This document shows, one piece after another, positions 126 to 52,831 of a stretch of DNA of 64,000 nucleotides (position 1 is the first letter of the stretch; the number at the start of each line of letters is the position of its first letter). The DNA is from Acidovorax sp. SUPP3334 (lineage in GTDB: Bacteria > Pseudomonadota > Gammaproteobacteria > Burkholderiales > Burkholderiaceae_C). A model generated the notes under the pieces. The model was not told the origin of the DNA. It worked only from the letters and a program-made list of their open reading frames with translations, and ran no database searches. A program made the translations under genes and the position numbers. The stretch covers positions 1 through 64,000 of the forward strand of contig NZ_BQXQ01000009.1 in assembly GCF_030159055.1 (NCBI RefSeq). Direction: 5' to 3'.

Positions 126-275
126 GGGGAATGTGGGGTCAACGGAGAAAGGTTGGCAAGAGGAAATCGGGAGGTTTTGATGGGTTTTTTGTCACAGCCA
201 TGATCTGAGGCAACAACGGATTGAAAGGGGCGCCTATTCACCGCCTGCGGCCAGCCTGGATTCGGCGGAACAGCG

Positions 276-629: not shown

Positions 630-1066
630 CCGCAGTTTCCTCCTGACGACGTTGCATCCCATGCAGCCTTGCCAATAACTCCCCAGTTGTAGAAGCCATC
701 GAATATGAGTGCGCCCGTGGCAGTCGCTCCAAGCGCCACGCCTCCGGCTGTGCGCCCTATTACCCGCAGCTCACGCATTCCAAGACGACTCGACCAACGG
801 CTCATCTGGCTTGTATAGGGGTTCAGCTCGCTCTTTGGTACACCAAGCCCCCGAAGCTCGCTAGGAGTTTTCGGCATGGTCCCAACCGCCCCGGTAGCCG
901 TAAGAGCTGCCAAGTCTGCTGCGGTACTCGAACGGTTCTCCTCGATTTGGTTGGTGAATTGGTTGAAGTCGAAACATGGTCCCGAGCCCAAGCCGCCATC
1001 ACCGCCAGACGCTTGCAGCCCGTGCGGGTCTATGAACATCAGCGGGTTCCCAGCGACGTATGCATA
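614..1066 (-). pseudogene. Orphan Rhs C-terminal module (tail without core)
   Basis: The reading frame opens directly after a TGA at 1067-1069 with YAYVAGNPLMFIDPHGLQ, the conserved end of an Rhs core, and continues for about 130 residues of tail. The remaining ~1400 residues of an Rhs protein are missing. An internal ATG at 1037-1039 could start a 141-residue peptide, but no good ribosome-binding site was seen. The tail contains TMPKTPSELRGLGVP and a hydrophobic RTAGGVALGATATGALIF stretch, resembling tails of Comamonadaceae Rhs proteins as I recall them. Its NPLMFIDPHGLQ junction differs from the NPVRFTDPEGLQ of the neighbouring full-length Rhs, so it came from another Rhs lineage. Such displaced tips can serve as donors for tip exchange. 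Confidence 0.8.
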
Positions 1067-1142
1067 TCAAAAACAACATTACGACGCCCCCGTCTGAATG
1101 CAATGCATGTCCTGAATTCTTCACATTTTAGATTTATATTTA

Positions 1143-1511
1143 TTATTGGGCGTATATTATTTTTATATTCTTCCATTCATCTTTGCTAATGAAAATATCG
1201 TTTCTGAGTTTCGGGGAGTTTATGATTAATAAATCATTTTGCCATTGAAATGAAGGTTCAACTTCAGCGGTTGTGACGAAAATTCTTTCTCCGTATTTAT
1301 CTTCTTCATTGGTTTTGGTGTTAATTTTTTTCAAATAAATTATTTTTGCAATTGAGGTTGTGCTGCCGCAGCTTCGAAGCGCTGCCGTAGCTGTAAATTG
1401 ACCGTCAGGCGAGTTTTTCGATAATATGATTTCATCTTGACAGTTGCTCTCATCATGGATTGGATAGCATCCAGCGAGCGCCAAACAAACAACGAAAATT
1501 AAAATCCTCAT
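1143..1511 (-). CDS. Small lipoprotein, unknown function
   Basis: This is a 122-residue protein with a lipoprotein signal, MRILIFVVCLALAGC, whose LAGC lipobox puts the acylated cysteine at about residue 15. The remainder is soluble and hydrophilic. The start at 1509-1511 was chosen because it begins the signal peptide; a start 25 codons upstream is possible. It is markedly AT-rich and lies between the immunity candidate of the large Rhs and the orphan Rhs tail. A periplasmic lipoprotein here could be an immunity protein whose toxin is lost, or a second immunity factor. I do not recognise the family. Confidence 0.7.
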   Translation of the reverse strand: MRILIFVVCLALAGCYPIHDESNCQDEIILSKNSPDGQFTATAALRSCGSTTSIAKIIYLKKINTKTNEEDKYGERIFVTTAEVEPSFQWQNDLLIINSPKLRNDIFISKDEWKNIKIIYAQ

Positions 1512-1540
1512 TTTAAAATCCCATGCATTTACAAAACTGG

Positions 1541-1852
1541 CTATGAACTTCCACTCGTTATCATAAAAATTGAATAAAAAAACCATAATAAAAATATTAA
1601 TGTAACCAACCTAATTGCGTAAATTTGACGAATAATTTTTCTTTCCAATAGATTCGATGGTTTCTTTAGTAGCCATTTCCAAAAAAGAAAAGTACTGGCA
1701 GGGGTATTATTTTTGATAACATGAGGTCTTCCCATGATTTCGTATTCTGCAGGATATTTGTCTTTTATTTGATTTATTAATAATTGACAGGCAACCATAT
1801 GAACTATTGCAAATATAGTTGCTGCCCATATTGAGATTGGTATTTCTTTCAT
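1541..1852 (-). CDS. Inner-membrane protein, candidate immunity for the Rhs toxin
   Basis: This 103-residue protein has one hydrophobic segment near the N-terminus (IWAATIFAIVHMVACQLL) and another near the C-terminus (LVTLIFLLWFFYSIFMI). Its ATG (1850-1852) overlaps the TGA of the large rhs gene (1849-1851) in an ATGA, so the two are translationally coupled. In Rhs loci the gene directly behind the toxin tip usually encodes its immunity protein. A two-span membrane protein would suit a toxin acting on the inner membrane. It is AT-rich like the toxin tip and unlike the Rhs core, so tip and immunity gene probably arrived together. Confidence 0.75.
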   Translation of the reverse strand: MKEIPISIWAATIFAIVHMVACQLLINQIKDKYPAEYEIMGRPHVIKNNTPASTFLFWKWLLKKPSNLLERKIIRQIYAIRLVTLIFLLWFFYSIFMITSGSS

Positions 1853-4800: not shown

Positions 4801-6576
4801 GATCGGGAGGTCGGGCAGGCCGGGCAGGCCGGGCAGGCCAGTGAGGTCTGGCATGGCCGGGGTCTCGCCCTGCGGTTTGTCCTGCGAGTTGCCCTGCGGT
4901 TCGGCGCCGGGCATCTGCGGGTAGCGGTAGAGCGTGGTCTGGCCCAGCGCATCGGTGTGCTCCAAGAGCCGGCCCCAGGCATCGTGGCGCCAGGTGGAGG
5001 CCAGCGGCTCGCCGGCGGCGCCCTCGGGGGCGCTGGCGATGTGGCGCAGGGGCAGGCCCCATGCATCGTGCTCGATGCGCTGGCTGCGCCCGGCCGCATC
5101 GGTGGTGCCCACGAGCAGGCCGGTGGCCGCATCGATGTCGTGGCGCACGGTGCGGCCCAGGGGATCGGTGCGCTCCAGCAGGCGGGCGGCGCTGTCGTGG
5201 CGCCAGGCAGAGCGCGCGCCGTCGGCCTCGATGCGCTCGGCCACGCGGGCCAGGCCCGCCTCGCCGGAGAACACGTAGCGCCGCTGCCGGCCCAGGCTGT
5301 CGGTGACGAGGGTGCTGGCGCGCTCGGGCAGGGGCGGGGTGGCGCTGGCGTCGGCGGGCAGCGGCGTGTAGTCCAGGTGCAGGTCCAGCCCGTGGGGCGT
5401 GGTCTGGGAGACGACGCGGCCGAGCGCGTCGTAGGTGTAGCGCGTCATGGGCCGGCCGGCGTGGGCATGGCCGGTCATTCGGCCGGGGTGGCCGGGGTGT
5501 GCGGCATCGGCGTAGTCGAAGGTGCGCACGGTGCGGCCCGTGCGGTCGATCACGCGGGCGAGTTCGCCGCGCGGGGTGTAGGCATAGCGCACCAGGGCCA
5601 GGGGCAGTGCCTGGCGCGGTTGGTCCTGGCGCGGTTGATCCTGGTGCGGTTGGTGGGGGTCTGATTCCAGCCAGACGGCCGTGAGGCGCACGCCGGCATC
5701 GTGCCCCCAGCCGTGGGCGGGCGGTCCGGGCGGTGCGATGCGCTGCAGCGCGAAGCGGTAGCAGCGGCCTGCGCCATCGGTGACCGTGTGCAGGTGGCCC
5801 GCGAAGGGGCCGTCGGCATGGTGCTCGTGGCGCTGCACGCGGGCGAAGCGGTCGCACAGGCCGTGCAGCACGTCGCGGTGCCCGGCCCCTGCGGCCCCCA
5901 TCTCCCCTGCGGCCGCAGCCGCCCCTGCCGCCCCCATCTCCCCTGCGGGCGCAGCGCCCGCGCTGGAGGGCGCAAAAACCCACCATGGCCCCAGCGGCGA
6001 GGCGGTGGCCACCGTGGCCCGAGCGTCGGCCCGCACGGACGCGGGCAGGGCGCTCCACAGGCGCGCCAGGCGTGCTGCGTGGCCGCCCTGGGCGGCCCCC
6101 GGCAGGTGCCCGGTGCCGCAGCGCACCAGCCACAGCCCTTCGCTGGCGCTGTGGGCGATCTCGCCGGGCGCCAGCGGCTCGAAGGCGATGCTTCGCCCGC
6201 GCCCGTCGTGCAGGCGCAGCGCGCCGGGCGCGTGGTCGTCGCCGGGCGAGCGGTCGTCGCCGTGCACCAAGCTGGCCTCCCCCGGCAGCCACCAGCCGGG
6301 ACCGAGCAGCCCCACGGGGGCCGGCTGCGGGCTCTGGTGGCTGGAGTACGAGCGCGTCAGCGTGAACGGCAGGGGGCCGGGCAGGGCGAAGTCCTGCTCG
6401 CCGGGCAGCACCTTGGCGCCCAGCAGCGGATTGACCGGGTGGCCTTCGGTGACCCCGCCCGGGCAGGCCGAGCACGCCACGCCCCCGCTGGTGCCGATCA
6501 GCACCGTGCGCGAGCCCTGAACGATGGGCCCGCCTTTCTTGGTGAGGTCGCTTTGTCTGGCTGCTGGCTTGCCCAT
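1849..6576 (-). CDS. PAAR-domain Rhs repeat effector with variable C-terminal toxin
   Basis: This is a 1575-residue T6SS polymorphic toxin. It has an N-terminal PAAR-like domain (about residues 1-90), a long core of YD/Rhs repeats (YRYDPAGR-type), the conserved core end DPIGLAGG...NPVRFTDPEGLQ near residue 1424, and a 151-residue tip from about 1425. The tip is Gly/Ala/Thr-rich (VRVGIGIGV, SAGATIGYRK) and matches no nuclease or deaminase motif I know. GC drops at about 2304, exactly at the core/tip junction. vgrG lies 91 bp upstream. No hydrophobic N-terminal segment is visible, which fits the absence of an Eag chaperone gene here. A palindromic repeat sits in frame at 4464-4482, and GEMGAAGA and DQPRQ repeats occur in the N-terminal third. 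Confidence 0.93.
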   Translation of the reverse strand: MGKPAARQSDLTKKGGPIVQGSRTVLIGTSGGVACSACPGGVTEGHPVNPLLGAKVLPGEQDFALPGPLPFTLTRSYSSHQSPQPAPVGLLGPGWWLPGEASLVHGDDRSPGDDHAPGALRLHDGRGRSIAFEPLAPGEIAHSASEGLWLVRCGTGHLPGAAQGGHAARLARLWSALPASVRADARATVATASPLGPWWVFAPSSAGAAPAGEMGAAGAAAAAGEMGAAGAGHRDVLHGLCDRFARVQRHEHHADGPFAGHLHTVTDGAGRCYRFALQRIAPPGPPAHGWGHDAGVRLTAVWLESDPHQPHQDQPRQDQPRQALPLALVRYAYTPRGELARVIDRTGRTVRTFDYADAAHPGHPGRMTGHAHAGRPMTRYTYDALGRVVSQTTPHGLDLHLDYTPLPADASATPPLPERASTLVTDSLGRQRRYVFSGEAGLARVAERIEADGARSAWRHDSAARLLERTDPLGRTVRHDIDAATGLLVGTTDAAGRSQRIEHDAWGLPLRHIASAPEGAAGEPLASTWRHDAWGRLLEHTDALGQTTLYRYPQMPGAEPQGNSQDKPQGETPAMPDLTGLPGLPGLPDLPIAITDARGGTTALQWNALGMLASRTDCSGRTTRWHYDAWGRTTRVQGEQGWQQRTAYDPSGRPVETTDALGRTTRYRYAPDSGDLLAVEHPGGLHERFTHDAWGRIVCYQYGSNEGNQTHGAGTETPKNPSQRPLLTQHYRYDPAGRLVELHNENAGVHRFAYDVRDRLLQETGFDGHATRHAYDRAGQRIRTEDARHAIAYQWSEAGMLLARVITPVGAPGTPGKAPDGTPPDRSAALPEPGAASEAAPIVEWFEHDGAGLLVAAHHHTAVLRHRVSVHLRRDRLGRILGERQAMHSLDGTLLWSHESAHSLDAGGAPDQADLPGLPPLQWLTYGAGHVHGLLLGAEPLLHIERDGLHRPVALDFGASRSRWQHDALSRLQAMAVGRLEGTEGSTAPVPDHAGMPAMPSMPSLSSLARQHHYDAAGRLARIDTPHGALQHAYDAAGRLAAAQWPGTQARHYRYDPAGNPWAPPASASKGHPQDDWASEVRRQFHDPAFDLLRQDAPLPPGHPRDRWPDNRVLAHGPWRYRYGPCGNLLEKTHADGRQSHRLHWDHAQRLVVHEQHDAASGLRIRRVHHYDVFGRRMATRIERTAAEGQTTTTEMRCHGWQGDALTLTELRDLGELGQQGEPARPQDTRRIHTLYAPGSFLPLLRIQTRAHAEPPTLAQLLGAAQAHEREQPEALQALQDELRHGASAATRRHLQSMGLDAERLQARLRGESAQITHLHLYHCDHLGTPLALINLQGNIDWHIQLDPWGNTIAEHNPLQLHQPIRMQGQHDEGEGATLFYNRHRYYDPGLGRYVSQDPIGLAGGVNNYQYGENNPVRFTDPEGLQANRPNRPSWWNEGWSPKTPPGNCATAECAAGIGDTKPMGKINSTEGLTCTVRVGIGIGVTASYNTEKGLTYLGVGPQAGLSASITGAGEMLVTGEGAKGIVVQTSGAFGNGFIGVSGNSAMGTAGTTTTVSPGIGTIGVSAGATIGYRK
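4464..4482. repeat. Dispersed palindrome copy, in frame inside rhs
   Basis: TGCTA and TAGCA arms flank a nine-base spacer. On the coding strand it reads into residues CYQYGSNEGN, at a point where an extra ~20-residue non-repeat stretch interrupts the Rhs repeats. It belongs to the family at 15276, 27512, 39480, 53479, 54424 and 61669. Confidence 0.6.
6452..6576 (-). repeat. 125-bp direct repeat of positions 1-125 (rhs 5' end)
   Basis: All 125 bases are identical to window positions 1-125, and both copies encode the N-terminus of a PAAR-Rhs protein. The identity stops at the start codon: the upstream sequences (gggaatgtgg at 126 and ggagtctcgc at 6577) differ. It can serve as a recombination target between the two rhs genes and may extend further to the left outside the window. 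Confidence 0.95.
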
Positions 6577-19879: not shown

Positions 19880-19920
19880 CGGGCAGCGGCAGCGTGTGCG
19901 CCCGGCCGGCGCACTCACTC

Positions 19921-20121
19921 TGCATTGCTTCAAGCGCCTGGGAGAGCGGGTAATGGCACGCACGTTCGAGCGTCAGGTCACAGAAGTTGCACGTGCGGGT
20001 GGCGCTGCTCAACCGCTTCACGCAACTGGGGTGCCCGACCACGGTGGCTGTGCCTGCCATGGCGTAGCTGCGTCTGGGGTAGGGGTCATCTCGCCTCGCT
20101 CCCGACTTGTGCAACAAAGCC
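19921..20121 (+). mobile_element. 201-bp remnant of the IS5-family right end
   Basis: The segment matches the last 201 bp of the complete IS (22115-22315) with only a few substitutions and the same orientation and length. It ends in the same terminal repeat (TTGTGCAACAAAGCC). The other ~850 bp of this copy are gone. It starts 41 bp after the neighbouring gene's stop. With the full IS it brackets the AT-rich pair at 20187-21073. Confidence 0.95.
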
Positions 20122-20186
20122 GCAGCCATCCACTCTTGTTCATTCAAAGCCAGGGTGTTGCGCTTCGCTTTTGAATCCGCCCTTCT

Positions 20187-20474
20187 TCAAAGACCAATCA
20201 ACTTTACTACCGTCACAGAAAATATGCAGACCGCTATTAAACCAATAAAAAACATTAGCAAAAAATAGCGAAAAAAATTTCTCAGCGTTGATTTGAAATA
20301 TTTAATAAAAATCCATCCCGCATACGTGAGCGCCAGTAGAATCAATACAGTAAATTTAACCCATAAATAACCGGATTCCCGATTTTGCTCGCCAACAACA
20401 ATTGCAAGGCTAATTACTATTGAAAAGACAAACAAAAAGATTGTGTTGAGCCAAAAACTTAAGACTTTTGGCAT
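20187..20474 (-). CDS. Small membrane protein, candidate immunity protein
   Basis: This 95-residue protein has three predicted membrane spans (FWLNTIFLFVFSIVISLAIV; WVKFTVLILLALTYAGWIFI; FFRYFLLMFFIGLIAVCIFS). It starts five bases after the stop of the 197-residue gene, so the two are co-transcribed. Base composition is strongly AT-rich against the surrounding ~68% GC, a sign of transfer. By arrangement it could protect against the upstream protein. No family was recognised. Confidence 0.75.
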   Translation of the reverse strand: MPKVLSFWLNTIFLFVFSIVISLAIVVGEQNRESGYLWVKFTVLILLALTYAGWIFIKYFKSTLRNFFRYFLLMFFIGLIAVCIFSVTVVKLIGL

Positions 20475-20479
20475 TCTAC

Positions 20480-21073
20480 TTATCCGGTAAAGTGTCCTGA
20501 AGGTATGGGCATGTCCAGGCCTGGCACTTGGTACCCCCTAAGAGCTGTTCGAATCACAATATCGTACCCAATACCATCTCCCGCAACACTGTTTAGCAAT
20601 CCAATCAAATAGGATGAACTATTATATTGACCAGAAATCATTCTGTCGCCACCTATATTTTGAGGAATGGAATATGGAGTGATCACGCCAGAAAAATTTC
20701 TGGCATTTCTAATAAGTTTATCTTTAAATTCCCTTGGCGTTATGAATTTTGGTGGAATTATAGAAATTTCAATGTCTTTTGGATTGGAGTATTTCAATCT
20801 TTCTGCAACAGTCATTTGATTATTATAGGTCAACAAATGATTTGGGATAGTATTTTTGTAGAAATTAGATTTTATCCTTTCAAAACCACCAATTCTAAAA
20901 GCGCCATCCGGTTGCCCATCAATGGCCGTAACTCCTTCATACAAGTCCTTTATTAGCAAGGTCAAGTGAAGGCTTGGACTGAATGGACTCACAATCCGAC
21001 CGACAACTATCGCAGCAATACGGGCTATCACAGTAAATTCTGGTTCTTTTTTATTATCAATTGCGGCTGACAT
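20480..21073 (-). CDS. Unknown 197-aa protein, candidate toxin in an IS-bounded island
   Basis: GGGAG about nine bases upstream supports the ATG at 21071-21073. An early HLTLLI strand and a later QYNSSSYLIGLLNSVAG segment resemble the His-first, Asn-x-x-Cys arrangement of permuted papain-like (NlpC/P60-type) hydrolases, but Ser stands where Cys is expected, so this is only a weak structural hint. A hydrophobic IARIAAIVVGRIVSPF lies near the N-terminus. The AT-rich pair sits between an IS remnant and a full IS, with a three-span membrane protein behind it, which suggests a toxin/immunity or effector/immunity cassette. The function is unproven. Confidence 0.75.
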   Translation of the reverse strand: MSAAIDNKKEPEFTVIARIAAIVVGRIVSPFSPSLHLTLLIKDLYEGVTAIDGQPDGAFRIGGFERIKSNFYKNTIPNHLLTYNNQMTVAERLKYSNPKDIEISIIPPKFITPREFKDKLIRNARNFSGVITPYSIPQNIGGDRMISGQYNSSSYLIGLLNSVAGDGIGYDIVIRTALRGYQVPGLDMPIPSGHFTG

Positions 21074-21265
21074 ACTACTACTCCCTTAATAATAATTCAT
21101 TGACGTTTTTTGTTGTGCAAGACCTAAATGAATCGAGATAATTCAAAACTAGACGCAGGCGTGTTATCACAGGCAGCGTTTTTCAATGCCCAACTATGAA
21201 AATCGGTTGAGCGATGCTACCAGCACAAACATTTAAATCACGGCTGACTACGCATGGTTTCAACT

Positions 21266-22315
21266 GGCTTTGTCGCACAAACACGGCCAGTCGAACGGTT
21301 AGCCTAGGCCGATGAGTGAACCCAAGGGGCGCCAAGCAGCGCTAAAAGACAACGAACTGGGCGGCGTACGACGCCGCGCTCAAAGCGAGAGGATCGCTGA
21401 CGATCTGGCTGGACAAGGACATGCAGTGGTACGCGCCGGCCAGTGGCAAACGCGGTCGCCAGCCCATCTTCGGCGATGCGGCGATTGAGTTTTGCCTGAG
21501 CATCGAGTGCCTGTTCGGTCTGGCCCTGCGCCAGAGCCTGGGGTTGGTGCAGGGCTTGCTGCGCCTGGCAGGCATGGACTGGCGGGTACCCGACTTCAGC
21601 ACCCTCAGCCGTCGCCAGAAGACGCTGCAGGTGCGGCTGCCTTACCGGCGCAGCAGCACGGCCCTGGACCTGCTGGTGGACAGCACCGGGATCAAGTTCC
21701 TGGGCGAAGGTGAATGCAAACGCAAGAAACACGGCGCCGAGTACCGCAGGCAGTGGCGCAAGGTACACCTGGGCATCGATGCCAAGACACTGGAGATACG
21801 GGCCATCGAGGTCACCGACAGCAGCGTGGGCGATGCGCCGATGCTGCACGGGTTGCTCTCGCAGATACCGCCCGATGAGCCGGTGGCCAGCGTCGGCGGG
21901 GATGGCGCCTACGACACCAAGGGCTGCCATGCGGCAATAGCGCAAAGGGGCGCACAGGCGGTGATACCGCCGCGCAAGAACGGCAAGCCGTGGAAAGAGA
22001 CTCCGATGGGAGCGGCGGTGCGCAACGAAGCCCTGCGGGCCTGCCAGAGGCTGGGGGGGAGCCTTTGCAAGAAGTGCAGCGGCTACCACCGAAGAAGCCT
22101 GGCGGAGACCAAGATGCATTGCTTCAAGCGCCTGGGAGAGCGGGTAATGGCACGCACGTTCGAGCGTCAGGTCACAGAAGTTGCACGTGCGGGTGGCGCT
22201 GCTCAACCGCTTCACGCAGCTGGGGCGTCCGACCACGGTGGCTGTGCCTGCCATGGCGTAGCTGCGTCTGGGGTAGGGGTCATCTCGCCTCGCTCCCGAC
22301 TTGTGCAACAAAGCC
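21266..22315 (+). mobile_element. IS5-family insertion sequence, 1050 bp
   Basis: The ends are imperfect terminal inverted repeats: GGCTTTGTCGCACAA at the left and, reversed, GGCTTTGTTGCACAA at the right (14 of 15 match). The single gene inside encodes a DDE transposase. I could not find a convincing target-site duplication: the left flank is aact and the right flank ctgt. Its right end lies 50 bp from the 3' end of the metallo-beta-lactamase-fold gene. A truncated second copy lies at 19921-20121. Confidence 0.93.
21312..22261 (+). pseudogene. IS5-family transposase with two frame breaks
   Basis: The main open frame (from MQWYAPASGKRGRQPIFGD at 21421) carries the DDE residues: Asp in LLVDSTGIKF, Asp in GGDGAYDTKG, Glu in RRSLAETKMHCFK. 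The expected N-terminus (TTNWAAYDAALKARG) is in frame with the main ORF but separated from the ATG at 21312 by an apparent extra G near 21348. The expected C-terminus (LHVRVALLNRFTQLG, ending at TAG 22259-22261) is in yet another frame after an extra G at about 22180. The second break is also present in the remnant copy, so it is not an assembly error. The element is either inactive or uses frameshifting. Confidence 0.8.
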
Positions 22316-22364
22316 CTGTTAAGACATGCGTCTGCGGTCTATCGGTCAAAACAGAAATTTTTAT

Positions 22365-23303
22365 CTATAGGTTACAAATCTGTGAGACCTGCACGGCGGC
22401 CGCGCCTGAGCGCACCAGATCATGCAAAGTGCCGTCCAGCCAAGCCTGTATGGGCTCGTCGCTGAAGTACCGCTCGTGCAGCAGCGCGAAGTACGGCGTG
22501 GCGGCGGCCCAGTCCCACAACTGCTGTGCTTCGATGCGCTGCCATTCCAGCAGCTTGTATTTGACGAGCACCTTGGCGGCGTAGCGCGCGTGCTTTTCGG
22601 GCGAGTGCACGAAGCCGTCCAGCCGACGCCGCGCCGTGTCCAGCGCGCGGGGCAGGTCGGTGAAAACGCGGCCATGCCCAGGGATCAGCGTGCGGGGCGC
22701 CAGCGATTCGATCAGGTCCAGCGTGGCAGCCACCTCGGCGAAGGCGCTGTCGCCTTCCAGTTCCGGAAAGACCACGCCGAAGCCGTTTTCCCACAGCGCG
22801 TCGGCGGAGATCATGAGGGCGTCGATGGGCTCGAACAGCACGATCGAATGCGGGTCGTGTCCCGGTGCGGCATGCACCTGCCAGGGCCGGTCGCCCAGCA
22901 TCACCTCGGTGCCGGGCTGGAGCACGCCGTCCATGCGGAAGGGCGGGCAGTCCTGGCCGGTGGGCGTGTAGCTCAGGGCGTTGGCGTCCCAGTGGCGCAC
23001 GTGTTCCGCCTGGCCCGGGGGAATGAAAGTGCGCAGTGCCGGCCAAGCCTGCTGCAGCGCGGCGTTGCCGCCGCAGTGGTCGCTGTGCAGGTGGGTGTTG
23101 AACACGCTGTCCAGCGCGCGGCCCTGCAGGGCGCCTTCCAGCAGCGCGACGGTCTGCGCGGCATGGGTGCAATAGCCGGTGTCCACCAGCGCGGTGCGTT
23201 CCGCCCCCAGGAAAAGAATGTTGTTGGCCGACAGCCACCCGCGCTCCAGCACGGTGATCTCTGGGGGCAGGCGGGGTGCGCCGGAATTCGGGGAGCAGGG
23301 CAT
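22365..23303 (-). CDS. Metallo-beta-lactamase-fold hydrolase
   Basis: This 312-residue MBL-superfamily protein has the metal motif HLHSDH at residues 71-76, followed by GHDPHSIVLF, SADALWENGFGVVFPE and LIPGHGRVF, the remaining metal ligands. The substrate is unknown. It starts 34 bp after rbsD and is the last gene of the ribose operon, which raises the question of a link to ribose or nucleoside metabolism. The C-terminus ends 50 bp before the IS; it looks complete. Confidence 0.9.
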   Translation of the reverse strand: MPCSPNSGAPRLPPEITVLERGWLSANNILFLGAERTALVDTGYCTHAAQTVALLEGALQGRALDSVFNTHLHSDHCGGNAALQQAWPALRTFIPPGQAEHVRHWDANALSYTPTGQDCPPFRMDGVLQPGTEVMLGDRPWQVHAAPGHDPHSIVLFEPIDALMISADALWENGFGVVFPELEGDSAFAEVAATLDLIESLAPRTLIPGHGRVFTDLPRALDTARRRLDGFVHSPEKHARYAAKVLVKYKLLEWQRIEAQQLWDWAAATPYFALLHERYFSDEPIQAWLDGTLHDLVRSGAAAVQVSQICNL

Positions 23304-25865: not shown

Positions 25866-26888
25866 TCATGCGGCCGCCCGGCGCTGGCGCACGGTATCGA
25901 TGATCACGGCAGCCACGATCACGCAGCCGGTGATGATGCGTTTGCTCGGCTCGCTCGCGCCGATCTGCGCCAGGCCCGCCTCCAGCACCGCGATGATGAG
26001 CACGCCGAACGCGGTGGTGATCACCGAGCCGCGTCCGCCCATCAGGCTGGTGCCGCCGATCACCACGGCGGCGATCACCTGCAGCTCCATGCCGGTGCCG
26101 GCGTTCGGGTCGGCCGCCTCCAGGCGCGCGGACTGCATCAGCCCGGCCAGTCCGGCCAGCAGGCCGGTGAGCGCGAACACGGCGATGCGCAGGGGGCGTG
26201 GGTCCACGCCGGCCAGGCGCATGGCTTCTTCATTGGTGCCGATGCCCACCAGGCAGCGGCCGAACACCGTGCGCGACAGCACCAGTTGCGCCACCACGAC
26301 CAGCACGAGGGCCAGCACGAACGCCACCGAGACGCCGCCCGCCACGGGCGCGGACAGCCAGGAGATCGCATCGCCCACGTACTGCGTGCGCGAATCGGTG
26401 ACCACGTAGGCGCCACCGCGCACCGCCTCCAGCATGCCCAGCGAGACGATGAACGACGGCAGGCGCCAGGCGACCGACACGGCGCCCGTCACGGTGCCGC
26501 AGATCAGGCCGGTGGCCAGCGCCAGAGCCGCAGCGGCGGGCACGCTCCATTTCCATTGCAGGATCGCGGCGGCCGAAGCCGCGGCCGACAGCGCCATCAC
26601 CGAGCCCACCGACAGGTCGATGCCCGCGATGATCAGCACGAACGTCATGCCCACGGCCATCACGGCCAGCGCCGGGATCTCGTTGGCGATGGTGACGAAG
26701 GTCTCGCGGCTCCAGAAGTACTCGGACATCCACGAAAACAGCACCACCATGCCCACCAGCACGGCAGCCAGGCCCAGGTAGGTGCCCAGTTGCGTGCGCC
26801 AGACCGAGGCGGACGACGCAGGGGGCGTGGCGGATGAAGAGGAGGAAGGGGCGGCGGCCTGCGCTGCCGGTGCGGCGGGGGTGTTCAT
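25866..26888 (-). CDS. rbsC: Ribose ABC transporter permease
   Basis: This 340-residue inner-membrane permease of the BPD_transp_2 type has about eight to ten hydrophobic segments after a ~30-residue Ala/Ser/Pro-rich N-terminal extension. The family motif GIDLSVGSVMAL and the cytoplasmic GIGTNEEAMRLAGVDP loop that contacts the ATPase are clear. The start at 26886-26888 overlaps the rbsA stop in an ATGA. Confidence 0.94.
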   Translation of the reverse strand: MNTPAAPAAQAAAPSSSSSATPPASSASVWRTQLGTYLGLAAVLVGMVVLFSWMSEYFWSRETFVTIANEIPALAVMAVGMTFVLIIAGIDLSVGSVMALSAAASAAAILQWKWSVPAAAALALATGLICGTVTGAVSVAWRLPSFIVSLGMLEAVRGGAYVVTDSRTQYVGDAISWLSAPVAGGVSVAFVLALVLVVVAQLVLSRTVFGRCLVGIGTNEEAMRLAGVDPRPLRIAVFALTGLLAGLAGLMQSARLEAADPNAGTGMELQVIAAVVIGGTSLMGGRGSVITTAFGVLIIAVLEAGLAQIGASEPSKRIITGCVIVAAVIIDTVRQRRAAA

Positions 26889-28552
26889 GCGGGAGAGGGT
26901 TCTTTGGCGGCCGTGCGGCCACCGGGTTCGGAAAAAGCGGCTGCGAGCAGGGATTGCTCGGTCCACTGGCCGCGCTCGAACACGGCGACCAGGCGCCCGG
27001 CGCTCATCACGCCGATGCGGTCGGCCATGGCCATCAGTTCGCGCAGGTCGGACGACACCATCAGCAGCGCGCGCCCGTCGTCCGCCATGCGGTCGAGTTC
27101 GGCATACAGGTCGGCGCGCGCGCCCACGTCCACGCCGCGCGTGGGCTCGTCCAGCAGCAGCACCCGGCCATCGCGGTGCAGCCAGCGGGCGAAGACCACC
27201 TTTTGCTGGTTGCCGCCCGACAACTGGCCCACGGGCTGCTCGGGCCCGCGGCAGCGCACGCCCAGCGTGCGGATGAAGCCCTGCACCACGGCGCTTTCGT
27301 GCGCGCGGCGCAGCCAGCCGAAGCGCGACACGGCCGACAGGTCGGACAGCGTGGCATTCACGCGGATCGGCTGCGTGAGCAGCAGGCCCTGCGACTTGCG
27401 GTCTTCGGCCACGAGCCCGATGCCGGCGGCGATCGCCTGCATCGGCGAGGCGAAGCCGCGCGGAATCCGCTGGCCGGCCAGCGGTGCATCCGGCGGAGTC
27501 CTTGAATCGTTTGCTATTGAATTTGTAGCAGTTCCCCCTAGTGCTGATTGCGCTGGAGGCCGATTTGGTTCATGGTCTTCGGACAGCACCACCGTGCCAC
27601 GGTCCGCCCGGTCGGCGCCGTACAACAGGCGCAGCAGTTCGGTGCGGCCCGATCCGACCAGCCCGGCGATGCCGAACACCTCGCCGGCGCGCAGCTCCAG
27701 GCTCACGTCCTGCACCGCCGTGCCCCGGCCCAGGCCTTCGGTGCGCAGCACCACCGGGCCGGCGCGGCGGCGCGGGCGGTGTTCCAGGTCGCTCACCGCG
27801 TGGCCCACCATGCGCTGCACCAGATCGGCCTCGCTCAGGCCGGCCATCGGGCGGGCGTCCACCAGCGCGCCGTCGCGCAGCACCGCCACGCGGTCGGCGA
27901 TGCGGCGCAACTCCTCCAGCCGGTGCGACACATAGACGATCGCCACGCCGCGCGCCGTGAGCCGCGCGATCTGCTCGAACAGGTAGTTGGTCTCGCGCGG
28001 CGTGAGCATGGCGGTGGGCTCGTCCAGCACCAGCACGCGCGTGTCGTCGTGCAGGTTGCGGGCGATCTCCACCATTTGCTGCTGGCCCAGCCCCAGGCGC
28101 GACACCGGCGTGGCCGGGTCGATGTCGGTCAGGCCGATCTTCGCCAGTTGCGCGCTGGCCGCCGCGTGCAGCGCGCCCCGGCGCAGCCAGCCCGCCCGGT
28201 GCGGCAGGCGGCCCATCAGCAGGTTCTCGGCGACGGTGAGCGTGGGCACCAGGCCCAGCTCCTGCATGACCATGCGCACGCCCTGGCCCTCGGCATCGCG
28301 GCGCGAGGCGGGCGCGTAGGGATGGCCGCCCAGCCGCATGCTGCCGCGCGTGGCGGGCTCCAGCCCGCACAGGATCTTGGACAGCGTGCTCTTGCCCGCG
28401 CCGTTCTCGCCGGTCAGGGCCAGCACCTCGCCCGCGTGCAGCGACAGCGTGACCGTGTGGAGCACGGTGGTGGCGTGGTAGTCCTTGCCCACGCCGATCA
28501 TCTCCAGCAAGGGGGCGGACGCGGGCGCGGCGGCGGGCGGCAGAGGGGGCAC
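26885..28552 (-). CDS. rbsA: Ribose ABC transporter ATP-binding protein
   Basis: This 555-residue protein has two fused ATPase domains. Domain 1 carries Walker A GENGAGKST (48-56), signature LGLGQQQM and LVLDEPTAML. Domain 2 has the degenerate GLVGSGRTELL of this subfamily, signature LSGGNQQKV and LLLDEPTRGVD. It powers ribose import with RbsB and RbsC. Around residues 330-360 a stretch containing GGTATNSIAND interrupts the second domain; it is encoded partly by a palindromic repeat (27512-27530). Confidence 0.94.
   Translation of the reverse strand: MPPLPPAAAPASAPLLEMIGVGKDYHATTVLHTVTLSLHAGEVLALTGENGAGKSTLSKILCGLEPATRGSMRLGGHPYAPASRRDAEGQGVRMVMQELGLVPTLTVAENLLMGRLPHRAGWLRRGALHAAASAQLAKIGLTDIDPATPVSRLGLGQQQMVEIARNLHDDTRVLVLDEPTAMLTPRETNYLFEQIARLTARGVAIVYVSHRLEELRRIADRVAVLRDGALVDARPMAGLSEADLVQRMVGHAVSDLEHRPRRRAGPVVLRTEGLGRGTAVQDVSLELRAGEVFGIAGLVGSGRTELLRLLYGADRADRGTVVLSEDHEPNRPPAQSALGGTATNSIANDSRTPPDAPLAGQRIPRGFASPMQAIAAGIGLVAEDRKSQGLLLTQPIRVNATLSDLSAVSRFGWLRRAHESAVVQGFIRTLGVRCRGPEQPVGQLSGGNQQKVVFARWLHRDGRVLLLDEPTRGVDVGARADLYAELDRMADDGRALLMVSSDLRELMAMADRIGVMSAGRLVAVFERGQWTEQSLLAAAFSEPGGRTAAKEPSPA
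27512..27530. repeat. Dispersed palindrome copy, in frame inside rbsA
   Basis: TGCTATTGAATTTGTAGCA has TGCTA/TAGCA arms. The surrounding ~70 bp is visibly less GC-rich than the gene and codes for a loop (residues ~330-360) in the second ATPase domain. Confidence 0.65.
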
Positions 28553-45989: not shown

Positions 45990-47212
45990 CCATGAAGAAG
46001 CGCGTCGTCATCACGGGTGCGGGCATCGTCTCGTGCATCGGCAATGACCAGCAGGCAGTGACCACGTCGCTGCGCGAGAGCAGATCCGGCATCCGCGCGA
46101 TGCCCGAGTTTGCCGAAATGGGGCTGCGCAGCCAGGTGGCGGGCGCCCCCCAGATCGACCTGGACGCCCTCATCGACCGCAAGCAGCGCCGGTTCATGGG
46201 CGATGCGGCGGCCTATGCCTACGTGTCGCTCAAGGACGCCATCGCCCAGTCGGGCCTGACGCCCGCCCAGGTGTCGCACCCACGCACCGGCCTCATCATG
46301 GGGTCGGGCGGCGGCTCGCCGGCCAACCAGATCGAAGCGGCGGACACCCTGCGCTCCAAGGGCATCCGCCGCGTGGGGCCGTACCAGGTCACGCGCTGCA
46401 TGGGCTCCACCGTGTCGGCCAACCTGTCCACGGCGTTCGCCATCAAGGGCATCAATTTCTCGATCACCTCGGCCTGCAGCACCTCCGCGCACTGCGTGGG
46501 CATGGCGGCCCAGCAGATCGCCTTCGGCCTGCAGGACGTGATGTTCGCGGGCGGCGGCGAAGAACTGTCCTGGGGCCTTGCCACGCTGTTCGACGGCATG
46601 GGCGCCATGTCGGCCAAGTTCAACGCCACGCCCGAGTCGGCCTCGCGCCCCTACGACGCGGACCGCGACGGCTTCGTGATCGCTGGCGGCGGCGGCGCGC
46701 TGGTGCTGGAAAGCCTGGAACACGCCCAGGCCCGCGGCGCCGCCATCCTCGCCGAGATCGTCGGCTTCGGCCTGTCGTCCGACGGCGAGGACATGGTCGC
46801 GCCCTCGGGCGACGGCGCCATCGCCTGCATGCAGCAAGCCATCGCCGAAGCCGGCGGCGGCACCATCGACTACGTGAACACGCACGGCACCTCCACCCCG
46901 GTGGGCGACCTGCCCGAACTGCGCGCCCTGCGCGAGGTGTTCGGCGACGCCGTACCGCCGTTCTCCTCCACCAAGTCGCTCACCGGCCACTCGCAGGGTG
47001 CGACGGGCGTGCAGGAAGCCATCTACTGCCTGTACATGCTGCAGGGCGGGTTCATCGCGGGCTCGGCCCACATCGAGAACCTGGACCCGGCCGCCGAGGG
47101 CATGCCCATCGTGCGCACCTCGCGCGATGCCGCGCTGACCACGGTGCTGTCCAACAGCTTCGGCTTCGGCGGCACCAACGCCAGCCTGGTGCTGCGCCGC
47201 TGGGATCACTGA
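45986..47212 (+). CDS. fabB: 3-oxoacyl-ACP synthase I
   Basis: This 408-residue ketosynthase elongates unsaturated intermediates after FabA. The active-site Cys is in [12 protein letters not shown], and the His residues are in [11 protein letters not shown] and [10 protein letters not shown]. The C-terminal [16 protein letters not shown] is typical. fabA-fabB form a two-gene operon ended by the hairpin at 47274. Confidence 0.95.
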
Positions 47213-47273
47213 CCACCGGTTGCTGAGCGGCGCTTTCGGCGCTGCTCATGCACATTGGCGCAAATCGAACCGC

Positions 47274-47299
47274 AAAACAGCACCCCTGGGCGCTGTTTT
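47274..47299. terminator. Bidirectional terminator between fabB and the dihaem cytochrome gene
   Basis: AAAACAGC and GCTGTTTT form a perfect stem with a ten-base loop between convergent genes. The A and T runs in the arms allow termination in both directions. Confidence 0.75.
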
Positions 47300-47317
47300 C
47301 CTTGGGGTCGCTGCGGC

Positions 47318-48364
47318 TCAATAGTTTTCGTTGACGTCTTTGAAGGGGCCTAACTTCGCCCGGAGGTACGCCTCGGGCTGCCCCGGAAAGTGTTCCGGAA
47401 TCGCGAAGCCCTGCGGGCGCAGCGCCGGGTCGGGATACAGGCGCCCTCGGTTCGGGTTCTGCAGGCGCGGCATGGCGTCGTCATTGAGGAACGCAGCGAT
47501 GTCCAGCGCTTGCGCCGGCGTGAGCTGGGGACGGTCGTAGGTAGCTCCCAGTGGCATGGAGGCCCTGATGTAGCGCGCCAGGAGCGGTACGGCGAACATG
47601 TGGCCGGCATTGTCATAGGTGTCGGAGCCGGCGATGGGCGGAAACAGGTATCCGCCGCCGGTTTTGAAATCGGAGCGTTGCTGGCCGGTCGCGTCCTTTC
47701 CGTGGCAGGCACTGCATTGCGCCGCGTAGAGCGTTGCGCCGCGCAGCGGATCGGCTGCCCGCGCGATGGAGGGCATGGGCAGCAGACCCGTGCGTTCCAT
47801 GGCGGAGTGCGCCGGCGTGTCGCGTGCCAGCCAGCGCAGATAGGCGACGATGGATTTCAATTCGGCCGTGTCCAGCGTGATCGGCACACTGCCTGGGCCG
47901 AACATGCCGATGATGCGCTGCTCCAGCGAAATGATCTTGCCCGACTTGGCATCGAACTTCGGATAGTCGTTGACGGCGTTCACCAGCGGCAACGCGAAGG
48001 GCTTGGTGCCTGGCAGGCCAGAGGCGCCTGTCTGGTGGCATTGCACGCAGTTGAGACTGTTCCAGCTCAGCCGTTTCGTGGCATCGGGGGTGAGTTTCCC
48101 GACCCGCGACGACGTGTTGCGCAGCAGGTCGATACCGTCCCGTATCGCGTCGCCCTCTGGCCCTGCCGGGATGCGCCTCTCGTCTGGCTCCGCCCAGGGC
48201 TGCGGCGGGCGGGCCGCGTAGCGCTCCAGCAGGGCCCGCGCCTGCGTGGTGCTCAAGGTGTCGCCGATTCGGTGAGGCGCGACGTCGAAGGCCCGCGCGC
48301 AGAAAGAGAAGACCGAGAGGCCGAGGAAAAGTGCGAGCGATCCCGCTCGTTTCATGCATGTCAT
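47318..48364 (-). CDS. Dihaem cytochrome c, TsdA-like (thiosulfate dehydrogenase family)
   Basis: This 348-residue periplasmic protein has a signal peptide (MKRAGSLALFLGLSVFSFCARA) and two haem sites, CVQCH and CSACH. The spacing and the segments LRNTSSRVGKLTP, SLEQRIIGMFGPGSVPI, TAELKSIVAYLRWL, PPIAGSDTYDNAGHM and RASMPLGATY match the TsdA thiosulfate dehydrogenase/tetrathionate reductase family as I know it. The start is at 48362-48364 or three codons on at 48355; no good ribosome-binding site was found. The substrate is inferred from family only. Confidence 0.8.
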   Translation of the reverse strand: MTCMKRAGSLALFLGLSVFSFCARAFDVAPHRIGDTLSTTQARALLERYAARPPQPWAEPDERRIPAGPEGDAIRDGIDLLRNTSSRVGKLTPDATKRLSWNSLNCVQCHQTGASGLPGTKPFALPLVNAVNDYPKFDAKSGKIISLEQRIIGMFGPGSVPITLDTAELKSIVAYLRWLARDTPAHSAMERTGLLPMPSIARAADPLRGATLYAAQCSACHGKDATGQQRSDFKTGGGYLFPPIAGSDTYDNAGHMFAVPLLARYIRASMPLGATYDRPQLTPAQALDIAAFLNDDAMPRLQNPNRGRLYPDPALRPQGFAIPEHFPGQPEAYLRAKLGPFKDVNENY

Positions 48365-48482
48365 GGTGCTGGTTTTTTCGAGGAAGGCCGTGCCTAGCAG
48401 GCACCCGTGGCCGGATCGTGGATTCTGCACTGTAGAACGCGAGGGTTTCCATGCCGGAGACCGTGAACACATCCGGCGGTTT

Positions 48483-49316
48483 CTATTCGCTGCGGGATTG
48501 CTCCGCGAGACCGGCCAGTTCCCTCCGCAGGCGGGTCCAGCGCGAGCGTATCGTGCGGTTGCCGCTTCTGCGCCAGCGAAGCACGAGACGGGCCGGCGCC
48601 GAGGGTGGATGGCGGACGGCGTCTTTGATCGCGCTTCGGAGGGCAGGTTCGCTCCAGCCTTCCATCTCGGGTATCGCCAAGGCTCCAAGGTTGGCTCCTA
48701 GCACCGGAAAGACTTCCTGCCAAAGTATCGTTTCGATGCGGGATACCGGGAACTCGGCGTCTAGAAGTCGGCGCGCGATGTGGTCGAAGTCGTAGTCCTG
48801 CAGTTCCTTGCCGACGAACAGGTCTGCGAGAGCCATCCAGACCGGCACATGGGTATCTAGCGCTGTCTCTGAAGAGGGGTGAATGGCATTGGGTCGTCCC
48901 GACGCGGCAACCATCTCGGTATAGACCTTGGCCTGCTTCACTTCGTCCAGGCCAGTGAATGCAGTCTTGTAGAGCGACTGGGCGTACTTTTCGGAAAGCT
49001 CGGCGAAAATTTTGCCGTAGCGCTTGAGCTTCGTCGCGTAGGCCCTGCCTATGGGGCGACCGCGCAGGCGTGCCAGTTCCATGATGTGGTTCCTCATGGC
49101 GGTGGCGGTCTCCGCCCCCTGCAGCGCCGTCATTCTTCCCGACTCCACGGCTTGCGCGATTTCGTTGGCCGCCGCTGCTGAGTCTTGCACGTATTGCACT
49201 CGCACACGCGCATCCTTGATGCAGTTATGAGCGAAATTGGCAGCAGTGGCCTGCAATTAGGCAAGAGCCGAATGGAGCTGTTTGGCATCCTGACTGGATT
49301 TTAAGTCTGTGCTCAT
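48483..49316 (-). pseudogene. DUF7079-like protein interrupted by an early TAA
   Basis: A strong GAGGAGG lies before the ATG at 49314-49316, whose frame reads [19 protein letters not shown], then TAA (49257-49259), then continues in the same frame for 256 residues (LQATAANFAHNCIKDARVRV and on). One nonsense codon therefore splits the gene; a TTG restart at 49254-49256 has no ribosome site. The first half is helical (GRPIGRAYATKLKRYGKIF). The second half (VPVWMALADLFVGKELQDYD; ILWQEVFPVLGANLG) resembles DUF7079 proteins, which I associate with immunity functions. It is divergent from glyQ. Confidence 0.75.
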
Positions 49317-49559
49317 TCTGTAAGACCTCCTCTGCTTTTGGTAGCGGGCGGATTGTGTTTGCCGGTGCTTGCAGTTGGTGTGTTGTTTTGCAATGCCGGG
49401 CTGCCGGGCTGCCGTGATCTGTGTGGTTTTGCGTGGCTCCCCAGGGTGGTTGCAGAACGTCCACTTTTCGGCCCCGTAGAATCCGCAGTTCCGCGCTCCG
49501 CGCGGCTTCGCTCTCCAGACCACGCGCCCGGAAGACGGCTGTCGCCGCCCCTGGCCGCC

Positions 49560-50519
49560 ATGACACACACACGCATGTTGACCTTCCAGCAAATCATCCT
49601 GAAGCTGCAGTCGTACTGGGCTGAACAGGGCTGCGCACTGCTCCAGCCCTACGACATGGAAGTGGGCGCCGGCACCTCGCACACCGCCACCTTCCTGCGC
49701 GCGCTCGGACCCGAGCCCTGGAAGGCCGCCTACGTGCAGCCCAGCCGCCGCCCCAAGGATGGCCGCTATGGCGAGAACCCCAACCGCCTGCAGCACTACT
49801 ACCAGTTCCAGGTCGTCCTGAAGCCCGCGCCGGCCAACATCCTGGAGCTGTACCTGGGCTCGCTCGAAGCGCTGGGGTTCGATCTGAAGAAGAACGACAT
49901 CCGCTTCGTCGAGGACGACTGGGAGAACCCCACGCTCGGCGCCTGGGGTCTGGGCTGGGAGGTCTGGCTGAATGGCATGGAGGTGACGCAGTTCACCTAC
50001 TTCCAGCAGGTCGGCGGCATCGACTGCAAGCCCGCCACCGGCGAGATCACCTACGGCCTGGAGCGCCTGGCGATGTACCTGCAGGGCGTGGACAACGTCT
50101 ACAACCTGACCTGGACCGATGGCCTGAGCTATGGCGACGTGTACAAGCAAAACGAGGTGGAGCAGTCCACCTACAACTTCGAGCATTCCGACGCCGACTT
50201 CCTGTTCATCGCATTCAACGCGCATGAAAAACAGGCCCAGCACCTGATGGAACAGCAGCTCGCCCTGCCGGCCTACGAACAGGTGCTGAAGGCGGCGCAC
50301 AGCTTCAACCTGCTGGATGCGCGCGGCGCCATCAGCGTGACCGAGCGCGCGGCCTACATCGGCCGCATCCGCAACCTGGCGCGCGCCGTGGCCAAGAGCT
50401 ACCTGGACAGCCGTGCGCGGCTGGGCTTTCCGATGGCGCCCAAGGAGTGGGCCGCAGAGGTGCTGGCCGACCTCGCCAAGGCGGAGCAGCAACAACAACA
50501 GCAGAAGAAGGCGGCCTGA
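49560..50519 (+). CDS. glyQ: Glycyl-tRNA synthetase alpha subunit
   Basis: This 319-residue catalytic subunit of the alpha2beta2 GlyRS begins [20 protein letters not shown]. Class II signatures include [19 protein letters not shown] and [20 protein letters not shown]. The C-terminus ends in a glutamine run before KKAA. It is followed 32 bp later by glyS, its partner. Confidence 0.96.
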
Positions 50520-50551: not shown

Positions 50552-52831
50552 ATGACCCATCCGAATCTTCTCGTTGAACTGTTCGTCGAAGAACTGCCCC
50601 CGAAGGCCCTGCAGAAGCTGGGCGACGCCTTTGCCGGCGTGCTGTTCGAGCAGTTGCAGGCTCAAGGGCTGGCCGCGCCGGGCGCCCGCCTGACGGCCTT
50701 CGCCTCGCCGCGCCGCCTGGCCGCGCACATCACCGAAGTGGCGCCCCAGGCCGCCGACAAGGCCGTCTCGCAAAAGCTCATGCCCGTCGCCGTGGGGCTG
50801 GATGCCGCCGGCAACGCCACGCCCGCGCTGCTCAAGAAGCTGACCGCGCTGGGGGCCGACGCCTCCGCCGTGGCCACCTTGCGCCGCGTGCCCGACGGCA
50901 AGGCCGAGGTGCTGTTCCATGACAGCACCGTGCGCGGCGCCACGCTGTCCGAAGGCCTGCAAAAGGCCCTGCAGGAGGCCATCGCCAAGCTGCCCATTCC
51001 GAAGGTCATGCGCTACCAGCTCACCTCCGGCTGCGAGCAGCCCGGCTGGACCAGCGTGAGCTTCGTGCGCCCCGCGCACGGCCTGGTGGCGCTGCACGGC
51101 ACCGAGGTGCTGCTGTCGGTGAAGGCGCTGGGCCTGACCGCCGGCAACACCACGCACGGCCACCGCTTCGAGGCCGCCGTGGACCCGGTGGTCGTCACCA
51201 GTGCCGACAGCTACGCCCAGCAACTGGCCGAGCAGGGTGCGGTGATCGCCAGCTTCGCCGAGCGCCGCGCCGAGATCGTGCGCCAGTTGCAGGCCGCGGC
51301 AGAGCGCATGGGCGGCGGCGTGCGCCCCATCGAGGACGATGCCCTGCTCGACGAAGTGACCGCCCTGGTCGAGCGCCCCAACGTGCTGGTCTGCGAGTTC
51401 GAGAAGGAGTTTCTCGATGTGCCGCAGGAATGCCTGATCCTCACGATGAAGGCCAACCAGAAGTACTTCCCGCTGCTGCAGGCCGATGGCCGGCTGTCGC
51501 ACCAATTTCTGGTGGTGAGCAACATCACGCCGGCCGATGCCAGCGCCGTGGTGCAGGGCAACGAGCGCGTGGTGCGCCCGCGCCTGGCCGACGCCAAGTT
51601 CTTCTTCGACCAGGACCGCAAGAAGACGCTGCTGTCGCGCGTCGAGGGCCTGGGTAAGGTGGTCTATCACAACAAGCTGGGCACGCAGGGCGAGCGCGTG
51701 GAGCGCGTGCGCGCCATCGCCAAGGCCATCGCGGAGCAGTTGTTCGCCGGCATCGGTGCGCACAACTCCGAGCTGGATTCGGCCGAGGGCGAGATCGCGC
51801 GCGACTACCTGCTGTCGTGCGTGGACACCGCCGCGTTGCTGGCCAAGACCGACCTGGTCACCGACATGGTGGGCGAATTCCCCGAGCTGCAGGGCATCAT
51901 GGGCGGCTATTACGCCGCCAACGACGGCCTGGCGCACGAAGTGGCCCACGCCATCGAGGACCACTACAAGCCGCGCTTCGCGGGCGACGAGCTGCCGCGC
52001 GACAACGTCGGCCTGATCGTGGCCATGGCGGACAAGCTGGAAACGCTGGTGGGCATGTTTGTAATCGATAACGGACCTAGCGGAGATCGAGATCCATTCG
52101 CTTTACGTCGACATGCGCTAGGAGTAATTCGCATGTTGATTGAAAAGCGTCTGCCATTGAGTCTGTATTCGCTGCTTACCGATGCATTGAATGTTTTTAG
52201 AAAATGGTTTAAGCAGAAAGTTGGCTCCATGGCTTCTCTGTCACAACCAGAGCGAGCGGTTGTGGAAGTGTTTTATCCAAGCTATGTAACTCAAATTTCG
52301 TCTGTAATTTCTTACAGCGCTATCCGGAGTTTCATGAACGATAGGTTGGCTGGGTATTTGCGAGAGTTGGGATTTGGCGCGAAGGAAATTGATTCAGTTT
52401 TGCAAGGTGAAGTGGAGAGGCTAGATGAAATGCCAAGGCGGCTCGCCGCCGTGCGCGCCTTCGCCGCACTGCCCGAAAGCCCGGCCCTGGCCGCGGCCAA
52501 CAAGCGCGTGGGCAACATCCTCAAGAAGGCCGAAGTGGCCGGCCCCGTGGACCCGCACGTCAATCCCGGCCTGCTGCAGGAAGAGGCCGAGAAGAACCTC
52601 TACGCCGCGCTGCAGCGCTTCGTGCCCGAGGCCGATGCCCAGTTCGACGCGGGCGACTACACCGCCAGCCTGCAGACGCTGGCCGTGCTGCGCGCGCCGG
52701 TGGATGCGTTCTTCGACGACGTGATGGTCAACGCCGAAGCGCTGGACCTGCGCCTCAATCGCCAGGGCCTGCTCAAGCGCCTGCACGTCGCCATGAACCG
52801 CGTGGCCGACCTGTCGCGGCTGGCCGCCTGA
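50552..52831 (+). CDS. glyS: Glycyl-tRNA synthetase beta subunit (mosaic gene)
   Basis: This 759-residue tRNA-binding subunit begins MTHPNLLVELFVEELPPKAL, with LIVAMADKLETLVGMF in the centre and LAAANKRVGNILKKAE toward the end. The gene is intact, but residues ~503-630 (52060-52440) are coded by 45% GC DNA with different codon use, between flanks of 63-68% GC. The replaced segment keeps the conserved SGDRDPFALRRHALGVIRML but then carries KWFKQKVGSMASLSQPERAV and FYPSYVTQISSVISYSAIRS, longer than the usual stretch in relatives as I recall. The frame is maintained, so the protein is probably functional. Confidence 0.95.
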   Translation: MTHPNLLVELFVEELPPKALQKLGDAFAGVLFEQLQAQGLAAPGARLTAFASPRRLAAHITEVAPQAADKAVSQKLMPVAVGLDAAGNATPALLKKLTALGADASAVATLRRVPDGKAEVLFHDSTVRGATLSEGLQKALQEAIAKLPIPKVMRYQLTSGCEQPGWTSVSFVRPAHGLVALHGTEVLLSVKALGLTAGNTTHGHRFEAAVDPVVVTSADSYAQQLAEQGAVIASFAERRAEIVRQLQAAAERMGGGVRPIEDDALLDEVTALVERPNVLVCEFEKEFLDVPQECLILTMKANQKYFPLLQADGRLSHQFLVVSNITPADASAVVQGNERVVRPRLADAKFFFDQDRKKTLLSRVEGLGKVVYHNKLGTQGERVERVRAIAKAIAEQLFAGIGAHNSELDSAEGEIARDYLLSCVDTAALLAKTDLVTDMVGEFPELQGIMGGYYAANDGLAHEVAHAIEDHYKPRFAGDELPRDNVGLIVAMADKLETLVGMFVIDNGPSGDRDPFALRRHALGVIRMLIEKRLPLSLYSLLTDALNVFRKWFKQKVGSMASLSQPERAVVEVFYPSYVTQISSVISYSAIRSFMNDRLAGYLRELGFGAKEIDSVLQGEVERLDEMPRRLAAVRAFAALPESPALAAANKRVGNILKKAEVAGPVDPHVNPGLLQEEAEKNLYAALQRFVPEADAQFDAGDYTASLQTLAVLRAPVDAFFDDVMVNAEALDLRLNRQGLLKRLHVAMNRVADLSRLAA
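52060..52440. other. Low-GC mosaic segment within glyS
   Basis: Hand count over 380 bases gives 172 G+C (45%), against 63% in 51841-51900 and 68% in 52501-52560. Both borders are abrupt (after gggcatgttt and before gctcgccgcc). Codons such as tta, aga, ata and agg cluster here while nearly absent elsewhere in glyS. This is best explained by in-frame homologous replacement from a lower-GC donor. Confidence 0.85.

Follow-up and report, generated by a model that had tools for sequence, protein, structure and literature searches.

The window, i.e. the whole 64-kb stretch of DNA analysed here, has a mean GC content of 0.669 and contains the genes for the α and β subunits of the aminoacyl-tRNA synthetase GlyRS, glyQ and the adjoining glyS. 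The latter is a single gene of 759 codons without interruption, and its product carries both PF02092 and the C-terminal anticodon-binding domain, the combination by which a GlyRS β subunit (GlyS) is recognized. Within glyS lies a foreign block. The features are:

49575..50519, forward strand: glyQ, GlyRS α subunit, not replaced (identity to G003, G006 and G016)
50552..52831, forward strand: glyS, GlyRS β subunit (PF02092 at residues 6-617, E 1.1e-178; DALR_1 at residues 648-746, E 8.9e-07)
52058..52440, forward strand: foreign block inside glyS, residues 503-629
52061..52093, forward strand: counterpart of E. coli Loop H18-19 (alignment to 7yse)
52154..52330, forward strand: hypervariable cassette, residues 535-593, helical hairpin tip (core comparison; model helices)
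52331..52440, forward strand: right part of the import, containing the conserved arginine of DRL, R598, which corresponds to E. coli Arg531 (invariant in alignment A1)

Composition and parts of the divergent block

The block differs from its gene in base composition, with a GC content of 0.444 and a GC3 of 0.402 (52058-52438) against 0.653 and 0.838 for the entire glyS; the upstream part of the gene has a GC3 of 0.92. Once two AT-rich islands are set aside (their lowest parts lie at 1059-1866 and 20128-20971), the block contains the 380 bp of lowest GC in the window. Compared with glyS of three congeners, dense mismatch starts at 52060 and stops at 52440. The DNA is 93.3-94.7% identical to theirs over gene bases 1-1500 and 94.0-95.3% over bases 1893-2277, whereas only 44-51% of the aligned sites are identical inside the block. 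The closest relatives differ accordingly: the flanks are nearest to G003, G006 and G016, while the block, searched alone, is nearest over its full length to a sequence from another genus (G095, 53% amino acid identity), which is also the best donor-side match across the full segment in a family-wide search. Hence glyS has the make-up of a mosaic gene, an in-frame divergent block with sharp borders between conserved flanks. A preliminary description of this DNA had reported a low-GC, divergent segment with clean borders and a preserved frame at residues ~503-630 of glyS, and it proved right on each of these points, including the location; a relative carrying the same segment at normal GC, which would have spoken against it, was looked for among the relatives read, and there is none.

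At the left end of the block, the counterpart of Loop H18-19 reads VIDNGPSGDRD in place of GIGNLPTGDRD. It thus starts with VIDN where most other sequences have GIGN or GIGQ, and an Asp at its third position occurs in the window only (n = 216 sequences). In E. coli, the acceptor stem and the discriminator base are held by this loop (Gly473, Asp474, Asp476) together with Arg481, Arg482 and Arg531, as described in PMC9908026. The corresponding residues are all kept in the window (G511, D512, D514, R519, R520, R598) and are invariant across the 54 sequences of alignment A1. An AlphaFold2 model of the window GlyS has a mean pLDDT of 89.6, with helices at residues 538-561 and 586-605; the tip between them (561-590) is less sure, with pLDDT block means of 74, 60 and 66. 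Foldseek places the model onto 7yse_C with a TM score of 0.87 by target length. Since the gene is intact, the contact residues are kept and the model is a confident one that superposes on 7yse_C, the chimeric GlyS is probably a working enzyme that would retain aminoacylation. A Pfam match of the segment to Fusion_gly (E 0.024), below the cut-off of that family, is taken as chance.

In fold, domain order and acceptor-stem contacts, the window protein resembles the β subunit of the heterotetrameric E. coli GlyRS (PDB 7yse, 7eiv), from which it differs in its foreign HD half and longer hairpin tip. Within E. coli, the 3' part of glyS is matched along 80% or more of the query length in 5375 of 5426 genomes, a threshold beneath which a small swap could hide, and with 100% cover in the 15 matches listed.

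The partners of GlyS show no such change. glyQ is 93.8-95.0% identical to its counterparts in G003, G006 and G016 at the DNA level and 98.7-99.7% at the protein level (300 residues), which speaks against co-adaptation with GlyQ. Co-adaptation with the tRNA was rejected likewise, as the 76-nt tRNA-Gly(GCC), the isoacceptor compared, is identical at 12 of 12 places in six genomes of the genus. Consequently, the variety of cassettes is not matched by variety in these two molecules with which the enzyme works.

Variation at the same site in related genomes

G003, G006 and G016, the closest relatives of the window species, form with it a clade with a support of 100 on a tree of the GlyS flanks. These four share 93-95% of their glyS DNA outside the segment, but have four different forms of it, that of G003 being the canonical one. 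In G016 and G006, the flanking protein is 98% and 99% identical and the cassette 22%; at the DNA level, identity between the two is 95.8% on one side of the core and 96.4% on the other, and falls to 38.7% within it. Syntenic stretches extend over ~55 kb with G006, ~62 kb with G016 and ~34 kb with G003, and the gap in glyS is the only one below 1 kb that fails to align in all three comparisons. As a control, we considered 8 other short gaps: 4 overlap no picked ORF and the other 4 a single one, in some cases a doubtful ORF, and therefore we do not claim glyS as the only gene affected.

The swap is not confined to this clade. From the DPFALRR to the ANKR anchor, most relatives have 103-108 residues and the window 134; forms above 108 residues are referred to as long in the following. 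Our overview comprised 60 genomes, 36 of them from the same family. Sequences were read for 33 of these 36 (30 overview loci, plus G033, G019 and G021 from other searches; G017, G023 and G024 were left out), and nine have a long, non-canonical form (G000, G006, G009, G016, G018, G021, G022, G035 and one of two G028 contigs). In the genus, 4 of 17 genomes do. A family-wide search of 399 genomes, 369 of which matched at 1e-8, yielded many further long forms; as it ranks genomes by likeness to the window segment, and thus gives a site-enriched set, we take no frequency from it. For the same reason, the single long form among the 74 anchor-bearing loci of 80 extra ones (6 lack the anchors) is no frequency estimate, since these loci rank just beneath the long variants. 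Among 30 deliberately chosen low-ranked family genomes, L267, L279, L284, L285 and L289 are long. Three of these 30 genomes (G103, G149, G169) gave no GlyS-β match at 1e-30 and may have the other GlyRS type or be incomplete.

In the metagenome-assembled genome G028, one glyS ends on contig C59 and a different version starts on C15. Their right ends agree at 92 of 93 nt and their left ends at 92 of 105, with two different cassettes in the middle; the pair may represent two alleles of one population, bearing in mind that such a bin can mix strains. The split glyS of G033, by contrast, is no rearrangement, as runs of N terminate the two pieces and mark a scaffold gap. The site in glyS is thus a recurrent swap hotspot, and the block in the window is not a one-off.

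By eye, from pairwise scores, we grouped the cassette cores into six recurring types, the weaker of which rest on 28-44% core identity:

Type A: L004, L034, L120, L121
Type B: L044, L118
Type C: L007, L127
Type D: L012, L013, L112, L138
Type E: L003, L119
Type F: L069, L123

The flank tree (FastTree) has 196 rows, 190 of them different and 34 long. It omits rows without anchors or with fewer than 420 flank residues, four duplicates (L131, L134, L137, L143), and L112-L115, L142, L163 and L164. On this tree, 30 changes between long and canonical are needed for the 34 long rows, and each type requires one change per row (4 for A, 3 for D and 2 for each other type), so that alleles of a type, as grouped by eye, are common to several species and genera against the flank tree. 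Within types, dN of the cassette exceeds that of the upstream flank in 15 of 16 pairs, the exception being type C; dS is saturated in 11 of the 16, and dN is below dS in the remaining 5. The cassettes have the appearance of long-standing sequences under constraint, not of junk. A model of a type A cassette shows a helix at 552-572, with pLDDT block means of 89 and 84 (551-570) and 68 (571-580).

In high-GC hosts, the low GC3 is likewise a property of most long forms. Among the 231 rows (40 long), those with a flank GC3 above 0.75 comprise 30 long and 155 canonical ones, and the mean difference between cassette and flank GC3 is -0.276 in the former and -0.015 in the latter (p 9e-14). The cassette falls below every upstream window of the same length in 21 of the 30 long rows versus 7 of the 155 canonical ones, and the largest drop of all is that of the window. 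In GC3, L048, L140 and L117 are long cassettes on a par with their host and L129 lies above it, while L285 and L062 also match or exceed it; not every long form, therefore, need be a recent import. Along the gene, drops in GC3 greater than 0.25 form 31 regions in 186 genes, 23 centred on residues 500-640 and 8 elsewhere (binomial 2e-11, treating regions as independent in a site-enriched set). In the subset from a search with the whole GlyS (29 genes, 27 with high GC3), 6 such regions fall within that range, one gene contributing two, and 1 falls outside it.

Origin of the block and possible causes of its exchange

We consider it highly probable that the block in the window is a recent import by homologous recombination, a piece of a divergent glyS of betaproteobacterial type, and that imports recur at this site; in the best reading, the window is the least adapted example of this recurrent import. 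The anchors of the import would be two strongly conserved stretches, ADKLETLVGMF to the left and RLAAVRAF to the right, and it would have replaced the hypervariable hairpin-tip cassette along with the half of the HD domain that binds the acceptor stem. Because both borders lie in protein stretches that are almost invariant, homologous recombination appears to be the simplest route. The older imports in G016 and G006 may have been trimmed later by recombination with canonical neighbours, which fits the observation that the tract in which they differ is shorter than that of the window. Given that the same place was replaced repeatedly in relatives, glyS in this group can be likened to a gene one of whose surface modules comes in exchangeable alleles. 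The preliminary description had suggested an exchange with a low-GC relative. Homologous exchange is upheld by the frame, the conserved borders, the codon usage, the GlyS-homologous content and the recurrence; a donor was found in none of the collections searched, and the idea of a single mosaic gives way to one case of a recurrently swapped site.

The donor would be unsampled, with a GC3 near 0.4. By DNA, plasmids gave nothing near, their single match being 72% identical across 105 bases, and phages gave no match to the segment. By protein, the plasmid search returned 37 records, two at 60-80% and the rest lower and thus nothing near; the 30 of these 37 that were listed either represent glyS from other groups or lack annotation at that place. 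Viral contigs, queried with the segment (for which short exact peptides are needed) and with alignment A1, contain nothing near, and neither do phage records, 15 of which have a glyS, below 60% identical and from other hosts; PHROGs gave no match. In a class-wide sample, 2 of 369 matched at 1e-13, and one of the two is the genome of the window itself; among the best 80 of 117 matches in a contig scan of relatives, which again needs short exact peptides, the top whole-length identities were 37-47%. The genome collections searched for a donor hold one genome per species.

As to why imports persist at this site, there is a serious chance, if less than an even one, that almost any in-frame sequence works at the surface tip, where imports would drift while being purged elsewhere in the gene. 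This would agree with the less sure tip of the window model, with three unrelated cassettes in nearly identical enzymes and with the lack of any partner found, which leans towards tolerance. It is opposed by type-specific residues that are kept over large distances (of 24 invariant ones, not all can lie in the tip, but Q62, R63, Q69, Q70, G81, G82, F90, S91, R93, F95 and D96 of A2 do) and by the fact that the import in the window altered the tRNA-contacting loop as well.

Somewhat more tentatively, an antagonist could drive the exchange, a cause added to the import explanation rather than an alternative to it: a phage or competitor protein, or a small molecule, would bind the tip of GlyRS β, so that rare cassettes are favoured and many alleles circulate. 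The preliminary description had likewise raised selection, such as escape from an inhibitor, phage or toxin, which may or may not contribute here. The concentration of GC3 dips at one site, the scatter on the flank tree of cassette types common to several genera, the elevated cassette dN with dN below dS in the five estimable pairs, the ordered type A cassette and the unchanged GlyQ and tRNA-Gly(GCC) are all compatible with such an agent. Conversely, canonical forms prevail, no antagonist or partner was found in the open-licence literature searched, and the glyS changes tabulated in phage-selection papers are single SNPs or upstream changes and prove nothing here (PMC8521149, PMC8711792). The focus on one site, the type-specific conservation and the fairly ordered type A cassette lean towards a function. 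It is even conceivable, though rather unlikely, that the GlyRS β tip is an arms-race surface, at which phages or competitors attack translation and Betaproteobacteria trade ready-made tip cassettes by recombination; the alleles of an essential housekeeping enzyme would then form a pool of the kind seen at loci for immunity or self-recognition.

The remaining explanations compete with import itself. In Rickettsia, palindromic elements insert in frame into genes, and the variable length and low GC of the cassettes, as well as a dispersed short repeat found in frame in another gene of the same genome, would suit a mobile in-frame element; we nevertheless regard this as very unlikely, as the glyS segment matches its own genome only once, namely itself, its ends are homologous to GlyS and PHROGs contain no match. 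A change in place, through relaxed or altered codon choice, has the composition in its favour and nothing further, and is more improbable still, considering that the protein is as different as the DNA, that the borders are sharp on both sides and that canonical genes have no comparable dip. A chimeric assembly or contamination, for which one may cite the draft state of the genome (138 contigs), is the least likely of all: the foreign block consists of GlyS sequence that keeps the frame and sits at its proper place in the gene, while the genome is 100% complete and 0.01% contaminated and G006 and G016, on contigs of more than 5 Mb, show a like replacement with other cassettes.

Mosaic housekeeping or target genes, such as mosaic penA, arise by homologous recombination with other species. 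glyS shares with them the sharp in-frame block between conserved ends; it differs in being an aminoacyl-tRNA synthetase gene and in that its site is reused by unrelated cassettes in different genera. Among bacterial aminoacyl-tRNA synthetases, GluRS2 has been proposed to be chimeric as well (PMC3927822), but that proposal appears to deal with how a second enzyme arose, whereas here the main enzyme is swapped repeatedly. While mosaic genes are thus a known kind, the listings of open-licence literature show no earlier description of cassette swapping in glyS. The gene is counted among the essential genes of E. coli (PMC6242692), and antibiotics directed at the HD domain of the bacterial enzyme have been suggested (PMC9908026, PMC8464048). 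Repeated swaps across genera imply either a natural agent that targets bacterial GlyRS or an acceptor-stem-binding half that is more tolerant than expected, and they make one ask why an enzyme that cannot be dispensed with should vary. In this group, glyS calls for caution as a plain marker gene.

Further observations on glyS and the window

Within GlyS, a minor second cluster of GC3 dips lies at residues ~238-262 (L126, L153, L166 and, at a laxer limit, L030).

In a GC3 scan of the 39 picked ORFs of the window, glyS comes third; the stronger dips are at the end of an RHS protein and in an ABC ATPase. The ABC ATPase ORF (26885-28552, reverse strand) has an in-frame insert of ~35 residues at 27465-27605 with a dispersed short repeat, for which the own genome holds 40 further partial matches, mostly of ~30-70 bases. 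The RHS-repeat protein (1849-6576, reverse strand) lies within 1-6576 and is followed past its C-terminal end by small, partly AT-rich genes, among them a DUF5412 match at 1143-1586 (reverse strand); by analogy, the locus looks like a polymorphic toxin locus. An IS transposase (DDE_Tnp_1, 21421-22584) sits beside an AT-rich ORF without a Pfam match (20480-21073), in a region (19880-22584) that is mostly unaligned to G006 and G016. Just before glyQ, an island at 47204-49554 with a gene of cytochrome c type has no match in the stretches of G003 and G016, and its part 47315-48335 is present in G006.
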